Source of the DNA: Cellulomonas palmilytica
Lineage (GTDB): Bacteria > Actinomycetota > Actinomycetes > Actinomycetales > Cellulomonadaceae
Length of the DNA stretch: 64,000 bases
NCBI RefSeq assembly: GCF_021590045.1
Contig: NZ_CP062221.1
Coordinates: forward strand, 1-64,000
Direction: 5' to 3'
Shown: positions 1 through 64,000 of the stretch, piece after piece
How positions within the stretch are numbered: position 1 is the stretch's first letter
How the letters are laid out: each line of letters begins with the position of its first letter
Made by a program: the position numbers and the translations under genes
The notes under the pieces: model-generated
What the model saw: only the letters and a program-made list of their open reading frames with translations
Told to the model about the DNA's origin: nothing
The model's database searches: none

Positions 1-255
1 ATCCGGGTGACCAACACCGGCACGACCGCGCTGAACGGCTGGACCCTGACGTTCCAGTTCGCCAACGGCCAGACCGTCCAGCAGGGCTGGTCGGCTGACT
101 GGAGCCAGTCCGGGACGACCGTGACCGCCAAGAACGCCGCGTGGAACGGTTCGCTGGCCGCCGGCCAGACGGCCGACATCGGCTTCAACGGTGCGCACAA
201 CGGCACGAACAACAAGCCGGTGAGCTTCTCGCTCAACGGCGCCACCTGCAGCTGA
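1..255 (+). CDS. C-terminal CBM2 domain of a secreted polysaccharide-degrading enzyme (5' partial)
   Basis: The frame is open from the first base, so the gene begins outside the window. The visible 84 residues are the C-terminal part of a family 2 carbohydrate-binding module: the pattern GWTLTFQF, then GWSADWSQSG, then AAWNGSLAAGQTADIGFNG, ending in a terminal Cys (ATCS) that would pair with a Cys at the start of the module. CBM2 modules bind crystalline cellulose or xylan through surface tryptophans, here those in GWSADW and AWNG. The catalytic domain is not visible, so the enzyme family is unknown. A strong hairpin follows the stop codon. Confidence 0.9.
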   Translation: MRVTNTGTTALNGWTLTFQFANGQTVQQGWSADWSQSGTTVTAKNAAWNGSLAAGQTADIGFNGAHNGTNNKPVSFSLNGATCS

Positions 256-42397: not shown

Positions 42398-42502
42398 AGG
42401 TCACGAGAACCAGCGCCAAGCCCCGGCTCGCTGGTCGGCAACCCCGGTCACGCGCGGGGTGCTCCGGGGGACGACCTGGTCGGCCCACGGGCCGGCAAAC
42501 GT
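42398..42502 (+). ncRNA. SAM-IV-type riboswitch
   Basis: The leader shows the conserved SAM-IV blocks in order: AGGTCACGAG, an ACCAGCG/CGCTGGT stem enclosing CAAGCCCCGGCT, CGGCAACCC, a CGCGGGGTG segment, the closing GACCT that pairs with AGGTC, and a short GGCCC/GGGCC hairpin before GGCAAACG (pseudoknot partner). It is directly upstream of the FMN reductase gene. SAM binding is expected to repress the operon when sulfur is plentiful. Confidence 0.88.
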
Positions 42503-42524
42503 GACGGAACGATTGCGAGGGACC

Positions 42525-43118
42525 ATGAGCACCGACGCACCAGCATCCCGCCCCGAGCCCACCGTCGTGGTGGTCGCGGGCAACCCGCGCGAGGGATCGC
42601 GCACCCTGCAGGCCGCCCGGACCGCGGCCCAGGCCGTCGCCGCCCACGTCGGCGGGACGGTCACCACCACGGTCGACCTGGCCGCCGTCGCCGGCGAGCT
42701 GTTCGCCGGGCAGCGACCCCGGGTCGACGCCGCGCTCGGCGCGCTGGCGGACTCCGACGTCGCGGTGATCGCGACGCCGGTCTACAAGGCCTCCTACACG
42801 GGCCTCCTGAAGTCCTTCCTCGACCTGTACGGGCCCGACGGGCTCGCGGGCGTCGTCGTCGTGCCGCTCGTCGTGTCCGGCAACCCGGCGCACGCGCTCG
42901 TCGGCGAGGTGCACCTGCGGCCGGTACTCGTCGAGCTCGGCGCGGTCGTCCCGACCCGCGCCCTCACGGTCACCGAGGCCGACCTGGCCGACCCGGCCGG
43001 CCTCGACCGCGCCGTGGACGCGTGGCTCGCGCGCGGCGGTGACGCGCTGCGCCGCGCGGTCGGGCAGCCGGTCGGGCAGTCGGCCGCGGACCTCGACCTC
43101 GCGGAGGCAGCCCGATGA
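42525..43118 (+). CDS. NADPH-dependent FMN reductase
   Basis: A 197-residue flavodoxin-like reductase of the SsuE/MsuE group: VVVVAGNPREGSRT (FMN phosphate loop), VAVIATPVYKASYTGLLKSFLDL (the conserved PVYK...LK segment) and VVVPLVVSGNPAH. It makes reduced FMN, which LLM-class monooxygenases use to break C-S bonds. The ATG at 42525 has GAGGGA upstream. It follows the SAM-IV element by 22 bases and overlaps the next gene (ATGA). The monooxygenases it probably serves are on the other strand to its right. Confidence 0.92.
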   Translation: MSTDAPASRPEPTVVVVAGNPREGSRTLQAARTAAQAVAAHVGGTVTTTVDLAAVAGELFAGQRPRVDAALGALADSDVAVIATPVYKASYTGLLKSFLDLYGPDGLAGVVVVPLVVSGNPAHALVGEVHLRPVLVELGAVVPTRALTVTEADLADPAGLDRAVDAWLARGGDALRRAVGQPVGQSAADLDLAEAAR

Positions 43119-43687
43119 CTGCCGAGCCCATCGCCCGCCCCCGCACCGGGGCCGCGCCGGAGACGCGCCTGTCGCCCGACGAGTACAAGGCCGTGTTCCG
43201 CGGGCACCCCGCGGGCGTCGTCGTCGTGACGCTGCGCGACCCCGACGGCCGACCTGTCGGGTTCACCGCGACGTCCGTGATCTCGGTGTCCGCCGAGCCG
43301 CCGCTGCTCGCGTTCTCGCTCGCGTCGTCGTCGTCCTCGTGGCCCGCGGTCTCGCGCGCGACCACGCTCGCGCTCAGCTTCCTCGCCGACCACCAGGACG
43401 ACGTGTCCGCCCGGTTCGCGACGAGCGGCATCGACCGGTTCGCGGCCGGCGGCTGGACCGCGCTCGAGACGGGTGAGCCCGTGATCGACGGCGCGCTGTC
43501 CTGGGTGCGCGGGCGCGTCGTGCAGCGCACGCCGGTCGGGTCGAGCTACCTCGTCTCGGTCGAGGCGATCTCGTCGTCCGCGCGGGTCGAGCCCGAGACG
43601 GCGCACCGCACCGGGCTCGAGGCCTCGTCGCCGCTCGTCTACCACGACCGGACCTACCACCGGATCGGCGAGCACTCCGCGATCTGA
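43115..43687 (+). CDS. Flavin reductase (flavin_reduct / HpaC-like family)
   Basis: A 190-residue FMN-binding split-barrel reductase: YKAVFRGHPAGVVVVTLRD, GFTATSVISVSAEPPLLAFSLA (FMN-binding core with FTATS) and SFLADHQDDVSARFA. It is distinct in fold from the SsuE-like enzyme before it, so the operon encodes two unrelated flavin reductases. The ATG overlaps the upstream stop. Reduced flavin from either could feed the six LLM monooxygenases nearby. Confidence 0.92.
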   Translation: MTAEPIARPRTGAAPETRLSPDEYKAVFRGHPAGVVVVTLRDPDGRPVGFTATSVISVSAEPPLLAFSLASSSSSWPAVSRATTLALSFLADHQDDVSARFATSGIDRFAAGGWTALETGEPVIDGALSWVRGRVVQRTPVGSSYLVSVEAISSSARVEPETAHRTGLEASSPLVYHDRTYHRIGEHSAI

Positions 43688-54094: not shown

Positions 54095-54879
54095 CGTGGT
54101 GCCCGCTCCCCCGCCGCGACGGCGAACGGCACGTGGTTGCCCTCGAGCGGCGCGGGGCACGTGCCGAAGTCGCTGAACGCGTACGGCAGGTTCAGCGCCC
54201 GGTTGAGGTCGAGCCGCACGGTGCTGCGGTCCGCCGACGGCTCGGGGAACACGATCCGCCACGGGGCCAGGCCGGGCGCCTCGTCGGTGAACAGCAGCGC
54301 CGGCGCGCCGCCCTTGCCGCCCGTCAGCCGCAGCGTCACGGTCCGGCCGTCGCGCTCCAGGTCGACCTCGCCGACGACGCTCACGTGGTGCACGAGCCCG
54401 GGTCGCGCCGCGCCGACGACGGCCGCGCGCGGCTCGTCGTACCAGCGCACGGGCACGTCCAGCACCCACGACGCGTCGTACGGGAACGTCGGCACGCCGT
54501 CGAAGTCGCGCAGCGCGGCCGCGCGCGGGTCCCGCAGGCGGATCGCGTAGCGGCCCGTGCGGCGGACCAGCTCGACCGCGACGTCCGCGTCCGCACCCGT
54601 GCGGCCCTGCGGCGTGTACGTCTGCACGACCTGCGAGCCCGCCTCGGCGACGACGTGCGTCGTCGCGCCGGAGAGGTCCGCGGTGCGCGCGTGGTGAGCG
54701 CCGTCCTCGTCGGCCCACCACAGGCCGGGCACGTCCGCGAGCGCGGTCGGCGTCGACGGCAGGTCCAGGTAGGCCACGAGCGTGAGCCAGCCGTGCGGCG
54801 TCGCGAGGTCGCGCTCGCGCGCCTCGTGCCACGTCGCCCAGTCGGCCTGCTCCTGCGTGCGGGTGTCCAGCGTGGTCAT
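54091..54879 (-). CDS. DUF1684 protein
   Basis: A 262-residue protein with the DUF1684 pattern: WHEARERDLATPHGWLTLVAYLDL at the N-terminus and the C-terminal RIVFPEPSADRSTVRLDLNRALNLPYAFSDFGTCPAPLEGNHVPFAVAAGE (described by position 208-258), with the N-R-A-x-N-P-x-C-A-F-type core seen here as NRALNLPYAFSDFGTCP. The function is unknown; its coupling with transport and LLM genes suggests a role with the organosulfur substrate. No signal peptide. Confidence 0.9.
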   Translation of the reverse strand: MTTLDTRTQEQADWATWHEARERDLATPHGWLTLVAYLDLPSTPTALADVPGLWWADEDGAHHARTADLSGATTHVVAEAGSQVVQTYTPQGRTGADADVAVELVRRTGRYAIRLRDPRAAALRDFDGVPTFPYDASWVLDVPVRWYDEPRAAVVGAARPGLVHHVSVVGEVDLERDGRTVTLRLTGGKGGAPALLFTDEAPGLAPWRIVFPEPSADRSTVRLDLNRALNLPYAFSDFGTCPAPLEGNHVPFAVAAGERAPR

Positions 54880-56612
54880 CGGTGCGCCTCTCTCGTAGCG
54901 GGTGTCGCGGCCGCCGCGCGGCCCGGGATCGCCCCGACCAGCTCGACGGTGTACGGGTCCTGCGGGTGGTCGAAGACCTGGTCGACCGGGCCGGTCTCGA
55001 CGAGGCGTCCGGCGCTCATCACGCCGACGACGTCGGCGACCTGCCGCACCACGGCCAGGTCGTGCGAGATGAACAGGTACGTCAGGGCGCGTTCGGCGCG
55101 CAGGTCCGCCAGCAGGGACAGCACGCGCGCCTGCACCGAGACGTCGAGCGCGCTCGTCGGCTCGTCGAGCACCAGCAGGTCCGGGTCGAGCGCGAGGGCC
55201 CGCGCGATCGCGACGCGCTGGCGCTGCCCGCCCGACAGCTCGCCCGGGCGCCGGCGCGCGGCGTCCGCGGGCAGTCGCACCAGGTCGAGCAGCTCGGCGA
55301 CGCGCGCGCGGCGCTCGGCGGGCGTGCCCACGCGGTGCGCGCGCAGCGGCTCGTCGACCACCTGCGCGACCGTGAACCGCGGGTCGAGCGACGCGTACGG
55401 GTTCTGGTGGACCAGCTGCGTGCGGCGGCGCAGCGTCCGCAGCGCCTCGCCGCGGGCCCCCGCGACCTCGGCTCCGTCGAACCGGACCGACCCGCCGTCC
55501 GCGCGCTCGAGGTCGAGCACGAGCCGCGCGGTCGTGGACTTGCCCGAGCCGGACTCCCCGACGAGCACGAACGCCGAGCCGCGGGGCGCCGAGAACGACA
55601 CGTCGTCGACCGCGCGCACGTCGACGCCCGAGCGCCGACCGCCGACGTGGAACGTCTTGCGCAGGTGCTCGACGACGAGCAGGTCGTCGGTCGCCGCGTC
55701 CGCGGCCGCCTGGCGCGGGCTCGTCGTGACCGGGACGCGCGCCGCCTCGTCGGGAGCACGCAGGCCGGGAGCGGCCGCGAGGAGCTCGCGCGTGTACGGG
55801 TGCTGCGGGTCACCGAGCACCTGGGCCGTCGGGCCGGACTCGACGACCTCGCCGTCCTTCATCACGACGACGCGCTCGGCCCGGTCCGCCGCGACCGCGA
55901 GGTCGTGCGTGATGAGCAGCACCGCGGTGCCGGCGCGCGCGGTGAGGTCCGCGAGCAGGTCGAGCACGCGGCGCTGCACGGTGACGTCGAGCGCGCTCGT
56001 CGGCTCGTCGGCCACGACGAGCTCGGGCTCGCACGCGAGCGCGATACCGATGAGCACGCGCTGGCGCATGCCGCCCGACAGCTCGTGCGGGTGCTGACGC
56101 GCCCGTGCCCGCGGCTCGTCGATGCCCACGGACGCCAGCACCTCCACGGCACGCTCGCGCGCGTCGCGGCGCCCGGCGCGGCCGTGGATGCGCAGCACCT
56201 CGGCCACCTGGTCGCCGATCCGCTGCACGGGGTTGAGCGCGACGCCCGGGTCCTGCGGGACCAGGCCGATGCGCGCGCCGCGCACCCGCGGCCACGCGCG
56301 GGCCGGGAGCGTCGCGAGGTCGAGCGACGTGCGCTCGTCGGCGCCGAGCTCGACCGACCCGGCCGTCACGCGCCCGGTCTCGGGGAGCAGCCCGACGACC
56401 GCGTGCGCCGTGGTGGACTTGCCCGAGCCGGACTCGCCGACGAGCGCGACGACCTCGCCCGGCAGGACGTGCAGGTCCACGCCGCGCACCGCGTCGACGT
56501 CGCCCGCCGAGCCCTCGTACGTCACGCGCAGGCCGCGCACGTCGAGCACCGGACGGGTGGTCGGACGGGGGCCGTCCGCGACCGTCGTCGTCGCCAGGGT
56601 CTGCGTGCTCAT
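54876..56612 (-). CDS. Fused dual ABC ATPase of a peptide-type importer (DppD-DppF-like)
   Basis: A 578-residue protein with two complete ATPase domains in one chain. Domain 1 (about 20-265): Walker A GESGSGKST, signature LSGGMRQRVLIGIAL, Walker B ADEPTSALD. Domain 2 (about 310-565): Walker A GESGSGKST, Q-loop LVHQNPYASLDP, signature LSGGQRQRVAIARAL, Walker B LDEPTSALD and ISHDLAVVR. This replaces the usual separate DppD and DppF. It overlaps both neighbours by 4 bases and powers the two permeases encoded upstream. Confidence 0.95.
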   Translation of the reverse strand: MSTQTLATTTVADGPRPTTRPVLDVRGLRVTYEGSAGDVDAVRGVDLHVLPGEVVALVGESGSGKSTTAHAVVGLLPETGRVTAGSVELGADERTSLDLATLPARAWPRVRGARIGLVPQDPGVALNPVQRIGDQVAEVLRIHGRAGRRDARERAVEVLASVGIDEPRARARQHPHELSGGMRQRVLIGIALACEPELVVADEPTSALDVTVQRRVLDLLADLTARAGTAVLLITHDLAVAADRAERVVVMKDGEVVESGPTAQVLGDPQHPYTRELLAAAPGLRAPDEAARVPVTTSPRQAAADAATDDLLVVEHLRKTFHVGGRRSGVDVRAVDDVSFSAPRGSAFVLVGESGSGKSTTARLVLDLERADGGSVRFDGAEVAGARGEALRTLRRRTQLVHQNPYASLDPRFTVAQVVDEPLRAHRVGTPAERRARVAELLDLVRLPADAARRRPGELSGGQRQRVAIARALALDPDLLVLDEPTSALDVSVQARVLSLLADLRAERALTYLFISHDLAVVRQVADVVGVMSAGRLVETGPVDQVFDHPQDPYTVELVGAIPGRAAAATPATREAHR

Positions 56613-57553
56613 CGCGCCGCCCTCCCGCCGCGCTCGAGCGCGCGGCCCAGGCGGCCCGCCGCCAGCACCACGACGGCGATGACCACGCCGGGCAGCGTCG
56701 GGTACCACCACGCGGTCGCGAGGTAGTTGCGGCCCTCCGCGACCAGCGAGCCCCACTCGGGTGTCGGCGGCACCGCCCCGAAGCCCAGGAAGCTCAGCGC
56801 CGAGACCGCGAGGACCACCGAGCCCAGCTCGATCGTCGCGAGCGCCAGGACCGGGCCCGTCGAGTTCGGCACCACGTGCCGGCCCAGGACCGCGCCGCGG
56901 CGGGCGCCCGCGAGCCGCGCCGCCTCGACGTACGTCGCGCCCCGCACCCGCAGGACCTCGGCGCGCATGACGCGCGCGAACGTCGCGACCGACGCGACGC
57001 CCACGGCCACCGCGACCTTGAGCGTCCCGAACCCGAGGACCGTCACGACCGCGAGCGACAGGAGCAGCCCCGGGATCGCGAGCAGCACGTCCGCGAACCG
57101 CATGAGCGCGTCGTCCACCCGCCCGCCGACGAAGCCCGCGACCAGACCCAGCGCCGAGCCGGCGCCCAGCGCGATCGCGATCGCGACCACCGCCGCCTGC
57201 AGCGACAGTCCCGTGCCGTGCACCGTGCGCGCGAACAGGTCGCGGCCCAGGTGGTCCGTCCCGAACCAGTGCTGCGCGCTCGGGCCCAGCAGGTTGTCCG
57301 CCGGGACGCCCGTGATCGGGTCGTAGGACGTGAACGCCGTGGGCACGAGCGCCCACGCGACGACGACCGCGACCACCAGGAGCGAGACGACCGCTCCGGG
57401 CCGCGCGAGCGGGTGGCGCCGCACGCGGGCGAGCCGCGCGCGCTGTGTCGTCGTGCCGGTCGTGCTCCCGACCGGTGCCGGGACGCTCGTCGTGCCGGTC
57501 GCACGCACCGACGCGACGCGCACGTCCGCGACGCGGGTACCCAGGACGCTCAT
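56609..57553 (-). CDS. Peptide-type ABC permease (DppC-like)
   Basis: A 314-residue permease: an N-terminal tail, one helix (AVVSLLVVAVVVAWALVPTAF), the periplasmic GTDHLGRDLFARTVHG motif that is diagnostic of DppC/OppC, then the EAA loop region YVEAARLAGARRGAVLGRHVVPN. The C-terminal SALSFLGFGAVPPTPEWGSLVAEGR is also typical. The ATG overlaps the DppB-like stop. Confidence 0.94.
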   Translation of the reverse strand: MSVLGTRVADVRVASVRATGTTSVPAPVGSTTGTTTQRARLARVRRHPLARPGAVVSLLVVAVVVAWALVPTAFTSYDPITGVPADNLLGPSAQHWFGTDHLGRDLFARTVHGTGLSLQAAVVAIAIALGAGSALGLVAGFVGGRVDDALMRFADVLLAIPGLLLSLAVVTVLGFGTLKVAVAVGVASVATFARVMRAEVLRVRGATYVEAARLAGARRGAVLGRHVVPNSTGPVLALATIELGSVVLAVSALSFLGFGAVPPTPEWGSLVAEGRNYLATAWWYPTLPGVVIAVVVLAAGRLGRALERGGRAAR

Positions 57554-58503
57554 GCCGCCTTCCTTGCCAGGTGGGGACCCGTGCGCGGGTCCAGCAGCGG
57601 GTAGGCCAGGTCGACCAGCAGGTTCACGACGACGAACACGAGCGCCGCGACCAGCACGAGGCCGAGCACCACGGGGATGTCCTGCGACGTCACGGCGGAC
57701 TGCACGAGGCGTCCGAAGCCCTGGCGGGAGAACACCGTCTCCACCACCACGGCCCCGGCGAGCAGGTTCCCGACGATCACGCCGAGCAGCGTCAGGGCCG
57801 GCAGCGCCGCATTGCGGGTCACGTGCCGCAGCTGCACACGCGTACGCGTCGCACCCTTCGCGAGCGCCGTCTCCACGTACGGCGCGGCCCATGCGGCCCG
57901 CATGCCCTGCGCGAGCACCTGCGCGATCGTCGCCGACAAGGGGATCGCCAGGGTGACCGCCGGCAGGACGAGGCTCGCGAAGCCCTGGTTGCCGACGGCC
58001 GGGAACACCGGCAGGCGGAACGACAGCAGCTGCAGCAGCACCAGCCCCACCCAGAACGTCGGCACCGCGACGCCCAGCGGCGGCAGCGCGAGCAGCAGGC
58101 CACGCAGCCGCGACGAGCGCGTCCACGACGCCGACGACGCGAGCCCCAGCCCGCCGACCACCGCGAGCAGCAGCGCGAACCCCGTGAGCCGCGCGGTCTC
58201 CGGCAGCGCCTGCCCGATGAGCGTCGCCACCGGCGCACCCGACGCGAAAGACGTCCCGAGGTCGCCCGTCGCCGCGTTCCCGAGCGCCTGCAGGTACTGC
58301 TGGAACGGGCTCTGGTCGAGCCCCAGGCGGTCGCGCAGCGCCTCCGCCTGCGCCGGGTCGACGCCCCCGCCGCCGGTGCCCGCGTCGAGCATGATGCTCG
58401 CCGGGTCGCTCGGCAGCAGGTAGAGGACCACGAAGGTGACCGTGAACGCCGCGAGGAGCACGACGAGGGCCGCGGCGACCCGGCGCAGGACGTAGGTGGT
58501 CAT
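57550..58503 (-). CDS. Peptide-type ABC permease (DppB-like)
   Basis: A 317-residue permease: N-terminal helix, then the DppB/OppB signature LGLDQSPFQQYLQALGNAATGDLGTSF, six helices in all, the EAA loop YVETALAKGATRTRVQLRHVTRNA and the terminal DLAYPLLDPRT. It is coupled (ATGA) to the binding-protein gene upstream and to dppC-like downstream. Confidence 0.94.
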   Translation of the reverse strand: MTTYVLRRVAAALVVLLAAFTVTFVVLYLLPSDPASIMLDAGTGGGGVDPAQAEALRDRLGLDQSPFQQYLQALGNAATGDLGTSFASGAPVATLIGQALPETARLTGFALLLAVVGGLGLASSASWTRSSRLRGLLLALPPLGVAVPTFWVGLVLLQLLSFRLPVFPAVGNQGFASLVLPAVTLAIPLSATIAQVLAQGMRAAWAAPYVETALAKGATRTRVQLRHVTRNAALPALTLLGVIVGNLLAGAVVVETVFSRQGFGRLVQSAVTSQDIPVVLGLVLVAALVFVVVNLLVDLAYPLLDPRTGPHLARKAA

Positions 58504-60158
58504 CAGTCCTGCTCGATCCAGGCGTCGTGGAACAGCAGGCGGGAGGACGCGTCGAACGTCACGCCGTGCACGTCACCGGCCACGCCGATGGACTGCGCGA
58601 GCTCGAACAGCGGGATCGCGAGCGCCTGGTCGACGATCTCCTGCTGCGCCTGCGCGACCAGGTCCGCACGCTTCGCCGGGTCGGCCGCGGCGAGCTGGTC
58701 CGCGAGCAGCGGGTCGAGCACGTCGTCGGCCTCGCGGTGGTTGATGTTGCGGCCCGTCGAGGCGAACTGCGGGCGCAGGATGTCCGCGTCGGCGCGCGTG
58801 ACGTTGTAGTAGTACGTGTCGTAGTCGCCCGAGTCGAGCAGCGCCTGCTGGTCGGCGGGCGTGACCTGCCGCAGCACCAGGTCGATCCCGACCGCGCGCA
58901 GCTGCTGCTGCACGAGCTCGAGCACCGCCTGCGAGCCCGTGAACAGCGGCGCGTACACCACGTCGATGCTGAGCTTCTCGCCGTCCTTCGCGCGGATGCC
59001 GTCGGCGCCCGCGACCCAGCCCGCGTCGTCGAGGAGTGACGCCGCCGCGGCCGCGTCGAGCGCGAGGTCGTCGGACAGGTCCGTGTACCCCGGCGTGGTG
59101 GACGCGAGCACGCTCGTCGCCGGCTCGAACGCGTCCGACAGGACCGTGTCGACCAGCTGCTGCCGGTCGATCGCGAGGTTCAGCGCCTGGCGCACCGCGA
59201 CGTCGTCGAGCGGCGCGGCCGAGACGTTCGGCTGCAGGACGAACGTGACGCCCGGGTTGGTGCGCGTGAGCACCGAGCCGCCCGCGCCCTCGACCTGCGC
59301 GACGTCCTGCGGAAGCACGTCCCCGACCGCGTCGAACTGGTCGGACGCGAGCCCGCCGGCCCGCACGCCCGACTCCGGGACGACCGTGAACTGGATCTTG
59401 TCCAGGTACGCCTCGCCGTCGTTCTCACCGAGTCCCGACGGCCACGCGTACCCGTCGCGGCGGGTCACGACCGCGCCCTGGTCCTGCGTGTAGCTCTCGA
59501 GCACGAACGGCCCCGAGCCGACGACCTTGCCCTGCAGGCGCTCGTTCGGGTCGACCGCCGCCGTGGCGTCGGACAGGATCGCGAGCGACACCGTGGACGT
59601 GGCCTGCAGGAACTGCGCGTTCGGCGCGTCGAAAGCGACGGTCGCGGTGTGCTCGTCGACGACCGTCGTGCCGGCGTACCCGGCGAGGTAGCTCGCGGCG
59701 AGCGGCGCGGTCGCGCCGAGCTCGCCCGTGAGCGCGTCGAAGTTCGCCTTGACCGTGGTGGCGGTCAGCGGCGTGCCGTCGGAGAACGTCACGTCGTCGC
59801 GCAGGTGGAACGTGAACGTCGTGAGGTCGTCGCTCACCTCCCAGGACTCCGCGAGCCACGGGACGATCTCGCCCGTCGTCAGGTCCTGGTCCGTGAGCGA
59901 GTCCGCGAGCTGGCGCGCGATGTAGATGCTGACGTTCGAGCCGACCTGCTGCGGGTCGACGCCCGACGGGGAGGCGCCGAGCGCGAAGCGCAGCGTGCCG
60001 CCCGGCGTCGCGTCGGCGGTGTCGGCGGTCGTGGTCGCGGCGGCGCTCGTCCCGGACGTCGTGCCGCCCGACGAGCAGGCGGCGAGCAGCAGGGCCGGGA
60101 CGACGAGCGTCGCGGCGAGCGCGCGGGCACGGGCGGGGATCCGCGGGGTGCGGGTCAT
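58503..60158 (-). CDS. Peptide-type ABC transporter substrate-binding lipoprotein
   Basis: A 551-residue SBP_bac_5 lipoprotein: basic N-terminus, hydrophobic segment and lipobox (LVVPALLLAAC), then GGTLRFALGASPSGVDPQQVGSNVSIYIARQLADSL, AESWEVSDDLTTFTFHLRDDVTFSDGTPLTA (family signature) and the C-terminal lobe ending LFHDAWIEQD. Such proteins near LLM clusters carry organosulfur or aromatic compounds more often than peptides (inference). It stands 65 bases after the NtaA-type monooxygenase gene. Confidence 0.93.
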   Translation of the reverse strand: MTRTPRIPARARALAATLVVPALLLAACSSGGTTSGTSAAATTTADTADATPGGTLRFALGASPSGVDPQQVGSNVSIYIARQLADSLTDQDLTTGEIVPWLAESWEVSDDLTTFTFHLRDDVTFSDGTPLTATTVKANFDALTGELGATAPLAASYLAGYAGTTVVDEHTATVAFDAPNAQFLQATSTVSLAILSDATAAVDPNERLQGKVVGSGPFVLESYTQDQGAVVTRRDGYAWPSGLGENDGEAYLDKIQFTVVPESGVRAGGLASDQFDAVGDVLPQDVAQVEGAGGSVLTRTNPGVTFVLQPNVSAAPLDDVAVRQALNLAIDRQQLVDTVLSDAFEPATSVLASTTPGYTDLSDDLALDAAAAASLLDDAGWVAGADGIRAKDGEKLSIDVVYAPLFTGSQAVLELVQQQLRAVGIDLVLRQVTPADQQALLDSGDYDTYYYNVTRADADILRPQFASTGRNINHREADDVLDPLLADQLAAADPAKRADLVAQAQQEIVDQALAIPLFELAQSIGVAGDVHGVTFDASSRLLFHDAWIEQD

Positions 60159-60223: not shown

Positions 60224-61594
60224 TCAGCCCGCGAGCTCGGTCGCCTGGTCGGCCACCTCGGGGCGGCCCAGCCCCAGGTGGTCGCGCAGCGTCGGGCCGG
60301 AGTACTCGGTGCGGAACACGCCGCGCTCCTGCAGCAGGGGGACCACCTGGTCGAGCACGTCGTCCAGGCCGTGCGGCGTCAGGTGCGGGACGAGGATGAA
60401 GCCGTCGGAGGCGTCCTCCTGGACGTGCCGGTCCAGGTCCTCGGCCACCTGCTGCGCCGTCCCGACGAAGCTGCCGCGCGTCGTCGTGTGGATCACGAGG
60501 TCACGGATGGACCAGCGGTTCGCCTCGGCCTGCTCGCGCCACGCCGCGACGATCGCGAGCGGGTCGCGCGCGTGCCGCACGCGGCCGCGCGTGATCGAGA
60601 TGTTCTCCACGTCGGGGTCGACGTCCGGCAGCGGGCCGTCCGGGTCGTACGCCTCCAGGTCGCGGCCCCACACCTGCTCGAGGAACGCGATCGCGGTCGG
60701 GCCCGAGACCTGCTGGCGGCGGATGTGCGCCGCGCGCTCGGCGGCCTCCTCGGCGGTGTCGCCCAGCACGACCGTCGTCGCCGGCAGGATCTTGAGGTCG
60801 CCGCGCGAGCGCCCGGCCGCGACGAGCCGCGCCTGCACGTCGTCGTAGAACGCGCGCCCCGCCTCGAACGACGAGTGCATCGAGAAGATGACGTCCGCGG
60901 TGCGCGCCGCGAAGTCACGGCCCTCCGCGGAGTCGCCCGCCTGGAACAGCACCGGGTGGCCCTGCGGTCCGCGCGGCGTGGTGAACGTCCCGACGACGTC
61001 CGCGTACCGGCCGTGGTGCTCGACCGGACGCACCGCGCCGGGGCGCAGGAACCGGCCGCCCTCGGCGTCGGCGAGCACCGCGTCGTCGTCCCACGAGTCC
61101 CACAGCGTGCGGGCGACCTCGACGACCTCCGCCGCCCGCTCGTACCGCTCCGCGTACGGCAGGTACCCGCCGCGCCGGAAGTTCTCTCCCGTGAACGCGT
61201 CCGGGCTGGTCACCAGGTTCCACGCCGCGCGCCCGCCCGAGAGGACGTCGAGCGTCGCGAACTGCCGCGCGAGCTCCCACGGCTCGTTGAACGTCGTGTT
61301 GATCGTCCCCGCGAGCCCGATGCGCTCGGTCACCGCCGACAGCGCCGCGAGCACCGGGAGCGTGTCCGGCCGGCCCACGACGTCGAGGTCGTGGATGCGG
61401 CCCTTGTGCTCGCGCAGCCGCAGCCCTTCCGCGAGGAAGAAGAAGTCGAGCTTCGCGGCCTCGGCGCGCGTCGCGAGGTGCTCGAACGAGGCGAAGTCGA
61501 TCTGGCTGCCCGACTCCGGGTCGCTCCAGACCGTCGTGCTGTTGACCCCCGGGAAGTGCACGCCCAGATGGATCTGCTTGCGTCGCGTGGTCAT
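60224..61594 (-). CDS. NtaA/SnaA/DszA-type FMN-dependent monooxygenase
   Basis: A 456-residue enzyme of the nitrilotriacetate/dibenzothiophene-sulfone monooxygenase group: LGVHFPGVNSTTVWSDPESGSQIDF, DFFFLAEGLRLREHKGRIHDLDVVGRPDTLPVLAALSAVTERIGLAGTINTTFNEPWELARQFATLDVLSGGRAAWNLVTSPD (described by position), VLFQAGDSAEGRDFAARTADVIFS and TPHGLDDVLDQVVPLLQERGVFR. The Bacillus relatives YxeK and YtnJ act on N-acetylated S-(2-succino)cysteine. The ATG has a GGGGGG upstream, 12 bases after the first operon gene. Confidence 0.93.
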   Translation of the reverse strand: MTTRRKQIHLGVHFPGVNSTTVWSDPESGSQIDFASFEHLATRAEAAKLDFFFLAEGLRLREHKGRIHDLDVVGRPDTLPVLAALSAVTERIGLAGTINTTFNEPWELARQFATLDVLSGGRAAWNLVTSPDAFTGENFRRGGYLPYAERYERAAEVVEVARTLWDSWDDDAVLADAEGGRFLRPGAVRPVEHHGRYADVVGTFTTPRGPQGHPVLFQAGDSAEGRDFAARTADVIFSMHSSFEAGRAFYDDVQARLVAAGRSRGDLKILPATTVVLGDTAEEAAERAAHIRRQQVSGPTAIAFLEQVWGRDLEAYDPDGPLPDVDPDVENISITRGRVRHARDPLAIVAAWREQAEANRWSIRDLVIHTTTRGSFVGTAQQVAEDLDRHVQEDASDGFILVPHLTPHGLDDVLDQVVPLLQERGVFRTEYSGPTLRDHLGLGRPEVADQATELAG

Positions 61595-61606: not shown

Positions 61607-62779
61607 TCAGGCCGTCGCGGCGAACACGTTGGCGGGGCGCGCGAGCCCGAGCGTGTCGCGCAGCGTGCGGCCCGGGTACGCGGTGCGGAACAGGCCCGCG
61701 GACTGCAGCGTCGGCACGACCTTGTCGACCAGCGCGTCCAGGTCCGTCGACAGCGACGACGGCCGCACGACGAACCCGTCCGCGGCACCCGCGGCGACCC
61801 ACGCGTCGATCGCCGCGACGAGCGCGTCGGGCGTGCCCACGTGCTCGAACGTCGTCGACGCACCCGCGCGCGGCTCGAGGTCGTCGAGCAGCTCGAGGCG
61901 CGCCCGCGCGCTCGCCTCGTCGTCCGCGAGCACCACGAACGCGTCGACGAGCACGCGCAGCTGGTCCGCGTCGCGCCCCGCGTCGGCGGCCCGCGTGCGC
62001 AGCAGCTCGCGCTGCGCGACGGCCTCGTCGAGCGAGGTGGCCTGCAGGCGGACGACGTCCGCGTGCCGCGCGGCGAGCGTGAGCGCCGCGTCGCTCGTCG
62101 CGCGCACGACGACCGGCGGTCGGCCCTGCGGCGGGCGCGGCGTGATCGACGGGCCCTTCACCCGGAACCTGATGCCCTCGTAGTCGACGTAGTGCAGCTT
62201 CTCCCGGTCGACGAACCGACCCGTCGCGACGTCGCGGATCTCCGCGTCGTCCTCCCACGAGTCCCACAGCCGGCCGACGACGTCGATCACGTCGCCCGCC
62301 TCGTCGACCGCGTCCGCCTCGTCCTGCACGCCCTTGCGACCGAACGCGCGGGCGGCCTCCGGCGTCGTCGACCAGCCCACGCCCCACGCCGCGCGGCCGC
62401 GGCTCACGTGGTCGATCGTCGCGACGGCCTTCGACACGTGGAACGGCTCGGTGTGCGTCGTGTCGATCGTCGGGACGAGGCCGATCCCCGCGCTGCGCGG
62501 CGCGAGGCGGGACGCGACGAGCGCCGCGTCGAGCCGGCCCTGCGCGCCGTGGCGCTGCACGGGCTGCAGCGAGAACGCGTCGTCGAGCACGACGAGGTCG
62601 AGCAGGCCGCGCTGCGCGGTCGCGACGAGGGACGCGAGGCGCTGCGCGTCGAACAGCCGCTGCGCCTGCGAGCCCAGGTCACGCCAGGCGGCGGGGTGCG
62701 CGCCGGCGTCGGTGAGGTCGACGCCCAGGTGCACCGAGGGTGCGCTCAGGTCGGTCCGGTGGCGGTGGTGCTGCGACAT
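61607..62779 (-). CDS. LLM-class flavin-dependent monooxygenase, first gene of the sulfur operon
   Basis: A 390-residue LLM protein: SVHLGVDLTDAGAHPAAWR, LLDLVVLDDAF, GLVPTIDTTHTEPFHVSKAVATIDHVSRGRAAWGVGWSTTPEAARAFGRKGVQDEADAVDEAGDVIDVVGRLWDSWEDDAE (described by position) and SLSTDLDALVDKVVPTLQSAGLFRTAYPGRTLRD at the end. The architecture is close to the NtaA group. The ATG at 62779 has GGAG upstream. Its mRNA leader carries the Cys-rich ORF and the SAM-IV element. Confidence 0.9.
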   Translation of the reverse strand: MSQHHRHRTDLSAPSVHLGVDLTDAGAHPAAWRDLGSQAQRLFDAQRLASLVATAQRGLLDLVVLDDAFSLQPVQRHGAQGRLDAALVASRLAPRSAGIGLVPTIDTTHTEPFHVSKAVATIDHVSRGRAAWGVGWSTTPEAARAFGRKGVQDEADAVDEAGDVIDVVGRLWDSWEDDAEIRDVATGRFVDREKLHYVDYEGIRFRVKGPSITPRPPQGRPPVVVRATSDAALTLAARHADVVRLQATSLDEAVAQRELLRTRAADAGRDADQLRVLVDAFVVLADDEASARARLELLDDLEPRAGASTTFEHVGTPDALVAAIDAWVAAGAADGFVVRPSSLSTDLDALVDKVVPTLQSAGLFRTAYPGRTLRDTLGLARPANVFAATA

Positions 62780-63062
62780 CGGGTGCTCCAGCTCGGTCAG
62801 GTGCGGTTCGGTCGGGTCGGGTGGGGCGCGGGTCGGCGCCGTGACGTCGCCGCACGCCCGGACGGGTCGTCCGGGTACGGCGATGCCGGGCGCGCGGGTG
62901 TCGCGCGGTGGGTCCGGGCGTCGTCGACGCTCGGACCCTGCCTGCGGCGTGCGGGGACGCGCGGTCGTCGTCGGACGTGTGCGCGTCCGTGGACCGTCAG
63001 GTCAGGTGGCCCGGCCGGTGGCCGGTGGGCGGATCAGCGTCCGCCGTGCCCGTGAGGCGTCG
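62780..63062 (-). promoter_or_regulatory. Structured spacer between the Cys-rich leader ORF and the operon
   Basis: A 283-base GC-rich spacer with no coding pattern. It holds at least two hairpins in the transcript: GGCGGA/TCCGCC at 63029-63046, just after the leader stop, and CCCGGACG/CGTCCGGG at 62857-62875. Either could take part in attenuation. Confidence 0.5.
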
Positions 63063-63152
63063 TCAGCGACAGCTCTCGTCGGTGCACATGGAGCGACAGC
63101 ACATGTCGAGGCGCGTGGCGCGGGTGTCCCCGTCGGTGCTCCTCATGCTCAT
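63063..63152 (-). CDS. Cys-rich leader peptide (attenuator uORF)
   Basis: A 29-codon ORF starting at ATG 63152 with GGGAG about 10 bases upstream; an internal ATG at 63146 would give 27 codons. The C-terminal half is DMCCRSMCTDESCR, with four Cys in eleven residues, matching the Cys-rich leader peptides known upstream of sulfur genes in actinobacteria (for example the Ms4527A/Ms5788A type). Ribosome stalling at Cys codons when cysteine is short is the established mechanism in mycobacteria. Here it lies between a SAM-IV element and the operon. Confidence 0.88.
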   Translation of the reverse strand: MSMRSTDGDTRATRLDMCCRSMCTDESCR

Positions 63153-63173
63153 GGGCTCGTCTCCCTCGGTCCG

Positions 63174-63290
63174 CTGCGTTGCCGGACGGCGGGGTTTCGC
63201 CGTCCGACCAGGTCCTCACCCGGGGCACCCCGCCGCGCGGGAGGGTTGCCGTCCGACCAGCCGGGGCTACGCGTCGGAGCTCATGACCTT
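63174..63290 (-). ncRNA. SAM-IV-type riboswitch
   Basis: Read on the minus strand the leader has AAGGTCATGAG, a TCCGAC/GTCGGA stem enclosing AGCCCCGGCT, CGGCAACCCTCC, GCGGCGGGGTGCCCCGGGTGA, the closing GGACCT, a 9-bp hairpin (63183-63206) and GGCAACGC as pseudoknot partner. This is the SAM-IV order and sequence, an even closer match than the copy at 42398. It ends 22 bases before the Cys-rich leader ORF. Confidence 0.92.
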
Positions 63291-63330
63291 CGTGCTGCAG
63301 ACCGGAAAATTCGGACTGCATTGGTCAGGA

Positions 63331-63359
63331 AAACTAGGCCCACCCCGTCGAGGTGTCAA
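63331..63359 (-). promoter_or_regulatory. Promoter of the organosulfur operon
   Basis: On the minus strand a perfect TTGACA -35 (63354-63359) is followed after 17 bases by TAGTTT (63331-63336) as -10. The predicted start at about 63323 is 33 bases upstream of the SAM-IV element. Confidence 0.65.
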
Positions 63360-63456
63360 CGACGCCCCACCCCTGTCCCACAATCCGGACCAACACACTC
63401 CCCTTTTGCGACCGGCCCCCGCCCACCGCCTCCGGTCCACCCCGAGACGAGACCGG

Positions 63457-63494
63457 GGTTGCTCCGGCGTCGACCGGTCAGAGCCGGAGCAACC
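63457..63494. terminator. Hairpin upstream of the sulfur operon promoter
   Basis: GGTTGCTCCGG (63457-63467) pairs exactly with 63484-63494. It may isolate the sulfur operon from purL read-through. A related half repeat, GCTCCGG, recurs at about 63533. Confidence 0.5.
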
Positions 63495-63599
63495 GCGGGG
63501 TCGGCGGAGGAGACATCGCCGAGACCGTCGTCGCTCCGGCTCTGGGGTCACGGAACCGGAGGAAGCGCGGGGTCGACGGCGGGTCGTCGGGACGACGAC

Positions 63600-63631
63600 G
63601 AGGCCCCCGCGCCGGTGGGTGCGGGGGCCTC
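63600..63631 (-). terminator. purL terminator hairpin
   Basis: GAGGCCCCCGC (63600-63610) pairs with 63621-63631 around a 10-base loop, about 50 bases after the purL stop on the minus strand. Confidence 0.7.
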
Positions 63632-63679
63632 GGGGTCGTGCGGGGCCTCGGTTCGTGCGGGGCCTCGGGTCGTGCGGGG
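63624..63679. repeat. Three 17-18-base direct repeats next to purL
   Basis: Units of the form GGGGCCTCGGGTCGTGC start at 63624, 63642 and 63659, followed by a partial unit that ends at the purL stop codon. Confidence 0.75.
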
Positions 63680-64000
63680 TCAGGCGAAGTGGCGCGGGAG
63701 GGTGGCCTCGAAGACCTCGCGGGCCTCGGCCAGCGGGATCGAGAACAGGCCCTCGACCTCGACAGCCGGACCCGCCTCGTCGTCGTCCGTCGCGACGTCC
63801 GCCGTCTGGCCCAGCTTGAGGGCCGGGACGCCGCGCGCGACGCACAGGTCCGCGAACCGCACCTCCTCCGAGCGCGGCACCGCGACGAGCGCTCGGGCCG
63901 TGGACTCGGAGAACAGCGCCTCGAACGGCGTCACGCCGTCGCGCTCGCACAGCGCGTCGAGCGACACCCGCGCACCCACGCCGAACCGCAGCGAGGACTC
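63680..64000 (-). CDS. purL: Phosphoribosylformylglycinamidine synthase II, C-terminal end (partial)
   Basis: The frame is open at the right edge of the window, so only the last 106 residues are seen. ARVSLDALCERDGVTPFEALFSESTARALVAV is the FSES signature of the PurL C-terminal domain, followed by FADLCVARGVPALKLGQTA and the terminal EAREVFEATLPRHF. PurL makes the amidine used by PurM. In many actinobacteria purL lies close to purF and purM on the same strand; here they are on the same strand but about 30 kb apart. Confidence 0.93.
   Translation of the reverse strand, partial: ESSLRFGVGARVSLDALCERDGVTPFEALFSESTARALVAVPRSEEVRFADLCVARGVPALKLGQTADVATDDDEAGPAVEVEGLFSIPLAEAREVFEATLPRHFA

Follow-up and report, generated by a model that had tools for sequence, protein, structure and literature searches.

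Organization of the leader and the downstream operon

Analysis of the window, i.e., the whole stretch of 64,000 nucleotides of Cellulomonas palmilytica, showed the presence on the reverse strand of a leader with a SAM-IV riboswitch aptamer and a short cysteine-rich ORF (uORF), located ahead of monooxygenase and ABC transporter genes. In the direction of transcription, the following features were identified:

63331–63359 (−): promoter TTGACA-17-TAGTTT, 42 nt 5' of the aptamer, with TTGACA at 63359–63354 and TAGTTT at 63336–63331 (direct reading)
63173–63288 (−): SAM-IV riboswitch aptamer (RF00634, 86.5 bits, E 4.3e-14, model positions 1–116 of 116)
63153–63172 (−): 20-nt spacer between aptamer and uORF, with the Shine–Dalgarno-like (SD-like) stretch GAGGGAG at 63167–63161 (direct reading)
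63063–63152 (−): Cys-rich leader uORF of 29 codons, MSMRSTDGDTRATRLDMCCRSMCTDESCR (ORF listing, codon reading and comparative tests)
62780–63062 (−): leader interval of 283 nt from the uORF stop to the first gene, with more C than G and an SD-like GGAG at 62789–62786
61607–62779 (−): first operon gene, NtaA/DmoA-family FMN-dependent (LLM) monooxygenase (TIGR03860, 287.5 bits, cut-off 279.7)
60224–61594 (−): second NtaA/DmoA-family FMN-dependent monooxygenase (TIGR03860, 426.1 bits)
58503–60158 (−): ABC transporter substrate-binding protein of the oligopeptide/nickel type (best match TIGR04028, 355.1 bits, below the cut-off of 468.5)
54876–58503 (−): ABC permeases (57550–58503 and within 56609–58126; PF00528) and two ATPase domains (within 54876–57356; PF00005)

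The preliminary description had proposed a SAM-IV-like aptamer, a 29-codon Cys-rich leader ORF starting 22 bases after it, and a monooxygenase/transport operon downstream. The aptamer is a full-length match well above the RF00634 gathering score of 38; the ORF was found in the ORF listing, and the operon carries FMN-dependent monooxygenase and ABC transporter genes as described. The gap requires correction: from the Rfam 3' boundary to the ATG, it measures 20 nt. Only one Rfam match at the gathering threshold was found in the leader, with no second aptamer, so the leader is not a tandem riboswitch.

According to the ORF listing, the C-terminal part of the uORF peptide is ...DMCCRSMCTDESCR, ending in MCCRSMCTDESCR. 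Its Cys codons are, in order, TGC, TGT, TGC and TGT, and the ORF terminates with TGT-CGC-TGA. All four Cys residues lie within the last 12 codons, which corresponds to the Cys-attenuator pattern, with Cys codons near the stop. No NCBIfam match was obtained for the peptide, NF042934 included.

Recurrence of the arrangement

The comparison was based on 243 SAM-IV loci; the genus contributed 114, other members of the family 63 and other members of the order 66. These were chosen by hand among the score-ranked matches listed, with low-scoring loci of the genus and family favored and many listed matches left out, so that the fractions of loci given here are not population estimates. Removal of two loci with short sequence and 14 near-duplicates left 227 dereplicated loci.

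At 32 of the 227 loci (genus, 21/101; other family, 9/60; other order, 2/66), an ORF containing three or more Cys, with a Cys content of 10% or higher, starts no more than 60 nt from the aptamer; at one of these, L111, the ORF lies within a gene and seems to have arisen by chance. Under the same definition, dinucleotide shuffles gave a mean of 1.2 (maximum 3, 20 runs), and the reverse strand gave 0. With a looser cut (at least 2 Cys and at least 8%), 43 ORFs were observed; shuffles gave a mean of 5.8 (maximum 10, 40 runs), the reverse strand gave 4, sequence offset by +600 nt gave 1/225, and sequence upstream of the aptamer gave 3/129. GC-rich sequence is rich in short ORFs, and chance would account for about one of the 32 strict hits; a chance ORF behind an ordinary SAM-IV riboswitch is nevertheless contradicted by the shuffle, reverse-strand, offset and upstream controls, by the TGT bias and by the ortholog counts described below, and is extremely improbable as an explanation of the arrangement.

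For further analysis, a curated list of 49 Cys-uORF loci (34 genus, 11 family, 4 order) was compiled, picked by eye for Cys content. It omits locus L082, which has such a uORF, as well as L080 and L091, in which the sequence ends before the gene start.

The closest relative found was Cellulomonas gelida (L083/L244), with a 29-codon uORF that aligns to the window uORF without gaps. The preliminary description had made its reading depend on conservation of the Cys codons in close relatives; C. gelida, which keeps Cys 19, 23 and 28 but not Cys 18, passes this test. In this single pair, 22/29 first, 19/29 second and 27/29 third codon positions match.

The preliminary description had also suggested a search for the same arrangement in related genomes, and the combination of SAM-IV and Cys uORF does recur in several genera, including Cellulomonas, Cellulosimicrobium and Oerskovia (L276) and, further out, Geodermatophilus ruber and a Pseudonocardiales MAG. 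The peptides of the latter two end in ...VDLLRTDSALCR and ...AIDLCRSASALCR, respectively. One locus, L247 (QAPD01000042.1), is titled Sphaerisporangium cinnabarinum, and both the locus and its uORF are much like those of Cellulosimicrobium, which suggests a mislabelled genome.

Some SAM-IV loci of the same class were also noted. A six-codon ORF without Cys, VSKRMR-stop, is conserved after SAM-IV at L324, L325, L326, L331, L334 (as VSQRMR), L338 and L339, and ORFs of this type resemble the VRMCCCR-type uORFs of L154, L156, L056 and L152. At L333 (G579, same class), SAM-IV is followed by MMCIHQAHSRRFVCRR and then by a MetY-like gene, possibly representing a further case outside the order.

The TTGACA promoter of the preliminary description can be read directly, with a 17-nt spacer, but fails a strict sigma-70 scan because its −10 element, TAGTTT, matches at only 3/6 positions. 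The pattern TTGACn-15..19-TAnnnT, counted no more than 150 nt 5' of the aptamer, is present at 24 of the 34 curated Cys-uORF loci having 150 nt of upstream sequence (loci not dereplicated), with a spacer of 17 nt in 22 of these 24. Mononucleotide shuffles gave a mean of 0.1 (maximum 2), and the pattern was found at 14/108 other SAM-IV loci.

Cysteine codons of the leader ORFs

In the 38 dereplicated uORFs (of 49), 117 of 1,023 codons are Cys codons, compared with 32 of 14,983 in the downstream genes, a contrast that is partly circular because the curated uORFs were chosen by eye for Cys. Two lines of evidence are free of this circularity, namely the chance tests with the strict and looser cuts and the choice between the two Cys codons. 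The TGT:TGC ratio is 86:31 in the uORFs and 1:31 in the downstream genes (p 1e-13); in the window, it is 2:2 in the uORF and 0:11 in 14 genes. Other twofold codons of the uORFs end in C (T:C of 0:21 for Asp, 0:23 for His, 0:37 for Ser AGY and 1:10 for Asn). Of the 117 Cys codons in the 38 uORFs, 49 lie at the three peak positions, 2, 3 and 4 codons ahead of the uORF stop. In our reading, the TGT bias together with the terminal clustering would reflect selection for slow decoding of Cys near the end of the ORF.

The TGT preference extends to leaders of the NF042934 type in Pseudonocardia, Actinomycetospora and Geodermatophilus, with 9/9 Cys codons being TGT (seven loci). In the leader of the Pseudonocardiales MAG, TGC and TGT each occur once.

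The codon data bear on two further explanations. One is that the conserved unit is an RNA element, a CUGUCGCUGAC-like string at the end of the ORF, rather than translated Cys codons. This would fit the identical TGT-CGC-TGA terminus found in 15 of the 38 dereplicated uORFs across different uORF groups, but the string is lost and the Cys codons are kept in, e.g., L146, L175, L225 and L231, and distant versions match a known leader-peptide protein family; we regard this explanation as very improbable. The other, also very improbable, is that the ORF is not a regulatory leader but a gene for a small functional peptide rich in Cys, which would bind metal or undergo modification. Both properties occur among short Cys-rich peptides, and the ORF is Cys-rich and keeps its position; on the other hand, the sequences differ between uORF groups except for the Cys near the C-terminus, the peptide has drifted in the single pair of window and C. 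gelida although three Cys codons are retained, and for a peptide product, a preference for TGT would make no obvious sense.

Gene classes and orthologous operons

Gene classes across the 243 loci were assigned by simple motifs. A curated Cys uORF is located ahead of 36 of the 39 monooxygenase loci, the three misses including L082, which does have a Cys uORF, and ahead of 6/6 SDF-family symporters, one of which was tested (PF00375, 327.7 bits). Cystine transporters are among the members of the SDF family. Curated Cys uORFs were also found ahead of 2/2 MetN-like genes, 2/24 MetY-like genes and 3/79 other genes, and ahead of none of the 24 FMN reductases, the 9 ABC permeases and the 60 genes of the group including a SufS-like gene.

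At many uORF loci (e.g., L053, L085, L035), ahead of genes of different families, odd recurring strings, GAACGGA or GATCGGAG, were observed at the ribosome-binding site of the main gene.

Orthologous operons were collected with a scan using the monooxygenase alignment, and the best 80 of 473 relatives were all run through Rfam. Among these best 80, an upstream aptamer on the strand of the gene was SAM-IV in 27 cases and S-box in 3, while 50 had no scored aptamer. A Cys leader ORF no more than 560 nt upstream, taken as either a Cys-rich ORF or a leader-peptide-like pattern, was found in 25/27 operons with SAM-IV, 3/3 with S-box and 13/50 with neither (Fisher p 2e-9 for the association between aptamer and Cys leader ORF). 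Both SAM-IV orthologs missing it belong to Luteimicrobium and have a uORF with one Cys only. Among the 13 aptamer-less operons with such an ORF, some look like chance, e.g., L280 and L309; two have sub-threshold S-box matches (L287, L289), and four from Oerskovia have a Cys uORF (L253, L256, L257, L275), with no aptamer found at these four even at E 0.5.

Of five uORFs of distant taxa, three pass the cut-off of 27 bits of the NCBIfam model NF042934, 'putative leader peptide', namely L284 (31.1 bits), L286 (33.3 bits) and L348 (27.1 bits), while L278 (20.1 bits) and L283 (26.2 bits) score below it. Among these five, the leader of the Pseudonocardiales MAG passes, and that of Geodermatophilus ruber scores 20.1 bits. 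Four other uORFs from the bacterial family of the window had no match to this model. The scores indicate that the ORF following the aptamer in distant taxa belongs to, or resembles, a known family of Cys leader peptides.

In Pseudonocardia and Actinomycetospora, an S-box (SAM-I) followed by an NF042934-like leader was observed before monooxygenase orthologs at L283, L286 and L288 and, with sub-threshold S-box scores, at L287 and L289. A general association of S-boxes with Cys uORFs was rejected: in the 30 best-scoring S-box loci at the class level, with genes taken without a family search, a start codon lies close 3' of the aptamer, and a short ORF with 1–2 Cys was found within 60 nt in 3/30. 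S-boxes before this monooxygenase family do have a Cys uORF (3 above threshold, 2 below).

Position of the leader start codon relative to the aptamer

The preliminary description had supposed that the aptamer gates the start codon of the leader peptide. The distance from aptamer to start has a median of 30 nt for the curated uORFs (n = 49) and 34 nt for genes placed directly after SAM-IV (n = 131), a likeness that is partly built in because the search for direct gene starts extended no further than 62 nt. The similar distances indicate that the uORF occupies the place of the regulated ORF relative to the aptamer. In the SAM-IV structure, the 3' end is formed by the second strand of PK-2 (PMC6890682, as far as the part consulted goes), which would bring a folded aptamer up against the ribosome-binding site of the uORF.

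Secondary-structure calculations lent the gating no support. With P1 forced, the SD of the uORF is not hidden: it is more open by over 0.1 in 22/46 loci, with the opposite in 1/46. In the controls, more open versus less open cases numbered 19 vs 1 of 46 for swapped tails and 20 vs 8 of 131 for direct genes. Since swapped tails behave alike and direct genes weakly so, this test of SAM-dependent SD occlusion by P1 tells little about gating. Control of the leader start codon by the aptamer is plausible from its position, and the P1 folds do not add to it.

These data bear on an explanation with two independent sensors side by side, in which SAM-IV would affect transcription, the stability of the RNA or translation further downstream, the Cys ORF would be a separate attenuator, and the two effects would simply add up. 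The occurrence of a Cys uORF with no scored aptamer in 13/50 orthologous operons makes the modules look separable, and the structural tests give gating no support. Against this, the uORF stands where the controlled ORF is expected and has an SD-like stretch of its own, and any local effect of SAM-IV on ribosome loading meets the uORF first. Independence of the two sensors is rather unlikely, though deserving consideration.

Output step

No terminator-like site was found at 62400–63700 of the window, and TTTT is absent from all 49 curated intervals between the uORF and the gene, that of the window included. C exceeds G in 49/49 of these intervals, with a mean skew of 0.24, compared with 0.09 in CDS and −0.06 upstream of the aptamer. 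The C excess and the absence of TTTT fit Rho-dependent rather than intrinsic termination. The intervals are somewhat more folded than shuffles (mean z −1.26 for 48 loci, −3.18 for the window), and this extra folding does not favor Rho loading.

The other candidate output is release of the SD of the main gene. In the window, both the MFE and the centroid folds pair GCUCCA of the uORF (63094–63089) with UGGAGC (62790–62785) at the main SD. With a ribosome simulated as stalled at each of the four Cys codons, the predicted openness of the main SD is 0.36, 0.35, 0.51 and 0.26, compared with 0.22 for a ribosome positioned at the stop and 0.25 for no ribosome; some stalls at nearby non-Cys codons open it equally. 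Across 45 loci, the stall simulation gave no effect (p 0.34). Pairing between the Cys region of the uORF and the ribosome-binding site of the main gene was rejected as a general rule, matched pairs having −18.0 kcal/mol and mismatched pairs −18.35 kcal/mol (49 loci). In complementarity to the ribosome-binding site, control windows taken from these leaders did equally well, and 0/49 beat shuffles at p 0.05. Complementarities found by hand, such as CUGUU with AACGG at several monooxygenase loci, were dropped because matched pairs were no better than mismatched ones. Since the stall effect is absent across loci and matched complementarity is no better, Rho rather than SD release is weakly favored as the general output.

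Other SAM-IV elements in the window and the genome

The whole genome contains five SAM-IV matches. The top-scoring one (L001) is located 5' of a gene whose best NCBIfam match, below the cut-off, is a SufS-family cysteine desulfurase. A second SAM-IV aptamer in the window has no uORF and serves as the comparison case for direct control:

42399–42507 (+): second SAM-IV aptamer (RF00634, 79.3 bits)
42525–43118 (+): FMN reductase gene, SsuE/MsuE-like (PF03358; TIGR03567, 90.8 bits, below the cut-off of 164)

The start codon of the FMN reductase, read from the sequence, lies 17 nt 3' of this aptamer. The region 42399–43687 comprises the second SAM-IV, the FMN reductase and a flavin-reductase-like gene, on the strand opposite to the monooxygenase operon. 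The window thus has a pair of SAM-IV elements, one with and one without a uORF, ahead of what look like partner enzymes.

Divergent back-to-back SAM-IV pairs, 203–229 nt apart, were observed at L086/L088, L073/L108, L082/L096 and L098/L102 (G049, G030, G055, G012). In each pair, one member has a Cys uORF and the other has none.

Proposed mechanism

On the basis of the anatomy, the recurrence, the enrichment of Cys codons, the UGU bias and the gene-class specificity described above, we consider it likely that the leader acts as a sulfur sensor with two inputs and controls an organosulfur-type FMN-monooxygenase/ABC transporter operon; SAM-IV would gate the leader ORF, and shortage of Cys-tRNA would stall the ribosome within it. 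The steps of ligand binding, gating, translation, stalling and output are inferred as follows. RNA polymerase would start at the TTGACA promoter, making the SAM-IV aptamer first and the short ORF next. With SAM bound, SAM-IV would prevent ribosomes from loading on the leader ORF, which takes the usual place of a SAM-IV-controlled gene. At low SAM, the ORF would be translated, and shortage of Cys-tRNA would stall the ribosome at the Cys codons near its end, often the rare and presumably slow UGU. The stalled ribosome would maintain expression of the operon in one of two ways: it would protect the C-rich stretch just after the stop from Rho, or it would make the ribosome-binding site of the main gene accessible. 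High SAM or plentiful cysteine would turn expression off, and the operon would be on only when SAM and cysteine are both short.

The integration of SAM and cysteine signals, put forward in the preliminary description, is well supported comparatively by the retention of Cys in C. gelida and the recurrence in several genera. In this soil bacterium and, repeatedly, in related actinobacteria, two sulfur signals are probably read by a single leader before genes for sulfur scavenging are expressed.

A broader proposal, for and against which we see the case as evenly balanced, is an actinobacterial class of leaders, each with a SAM riboswitch (SAM-IV, occasionally S-box) that regulates a cysteine-attenuator peptide. 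SAM would decide whether the attenuator is read, and the UGU-tuned attenuator would decide the operon; such leaders would have evolved on more than one occasion, and their use would be selective for operons of sulfur scavenging and uptake.

A leader is usually regarded as having either a riboswitch or a leader-peptide attenuator; here, the two are stacked, the riboswitch adjoining the start codon of the attenuator, and the stacking spans many species and several kinds of sulfur-related operon. If the gating is real, RNA and a single short ORF would together form a compact two-input gate, available in dozens of natural variants, and short Cys-rich ORFs after SAM-IV would gain a role. The UGU bias offers a simple handle on the tuning of stalling.

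Comparison with known systems

By its Rfam score, the aptamer of the leader is a full-length member of the SAM-IV riboswitches (RF00634), but the first ORF is a Cys-rich leader rather than a metabolic gene. Polycysteine uORFs were reportedly described by Canestrari in 2020 as leaderless, judging by the title. Unlike these, the window ORF is located 3' of a riboswitch and has its own SD-like stretch. The PK-2 strand placed at the 3' end of SAM-IV in the part of PMC6890682 consulted stands just before the ORF here.

In the accessible part of the 2005 study by Seliverstov (PMC1262725), and as represented by Ms4527A/Ms5788A and NF042934, actinobacterial Cys leaders have runs of Cys near the stop of a short ORF, ahead of sulfur genes; conserved terminator hairpins were absent, and Rho was suggested as a weak prediction. 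The window leader shares with them Cys near the stop, the sulfur-gene context and the lack of terminator hairpins.

In Streptomyces lividans, the 'metL' leader MSTTSDRTPATEATTTPGARCMCRRMCAF before metNIQ is reported as leaderless and methionine-dependent in the portion of PMC8079986 available. Like the uORFs described here, it is a Cys-rich short ORF with a similar end before a sulfur amino acid transporter; unlike here, no riboswitch is named with the leader in that portion. As metL has three Cys near its end (ARCMCRRMCAF), it may instead be a cysteine leader.

The uORFC-8-2 before cysS of Rhodobacterales (PMC8632094, accessible part) is likewise a uORF; its Cys codons are in tandem, and it was interpreted as a cysteine attenuator, but it has an intrinsic terminator, occurs in alphaproteobacteria and is presented in that part with no mention of a riboswitch. 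In the Sinorhizobium metA SAM-II leader with AUG1/AUG2 (PMC9373788, in the sections consulted), the start codon nearest to the riboswitch is also not that of the gene, and termination occurs further on; the riboswitch is of another class, and there is no amino-acid-sensing leader peptide in those sections.

For the combination of SAM-IV with a Cys uORF, no description was found in the openly licensed literature, which is weak evidence of absence. The nearest parallel in the integration of signals is the SAM-I riboswitch of Xanthomonas sensing uncharged initiator tRNA, in which, according to the part of PMC7270179 consulted, one leader also answers both SAM and tRNA charging; unlike here, the tRNA binds the RNA directly, with no leader ORF. 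SAM-IV riboswitches and Cys leader peptides are each known; what appears to be new is their stacking, with a testable candidate dependency between the two sensors.
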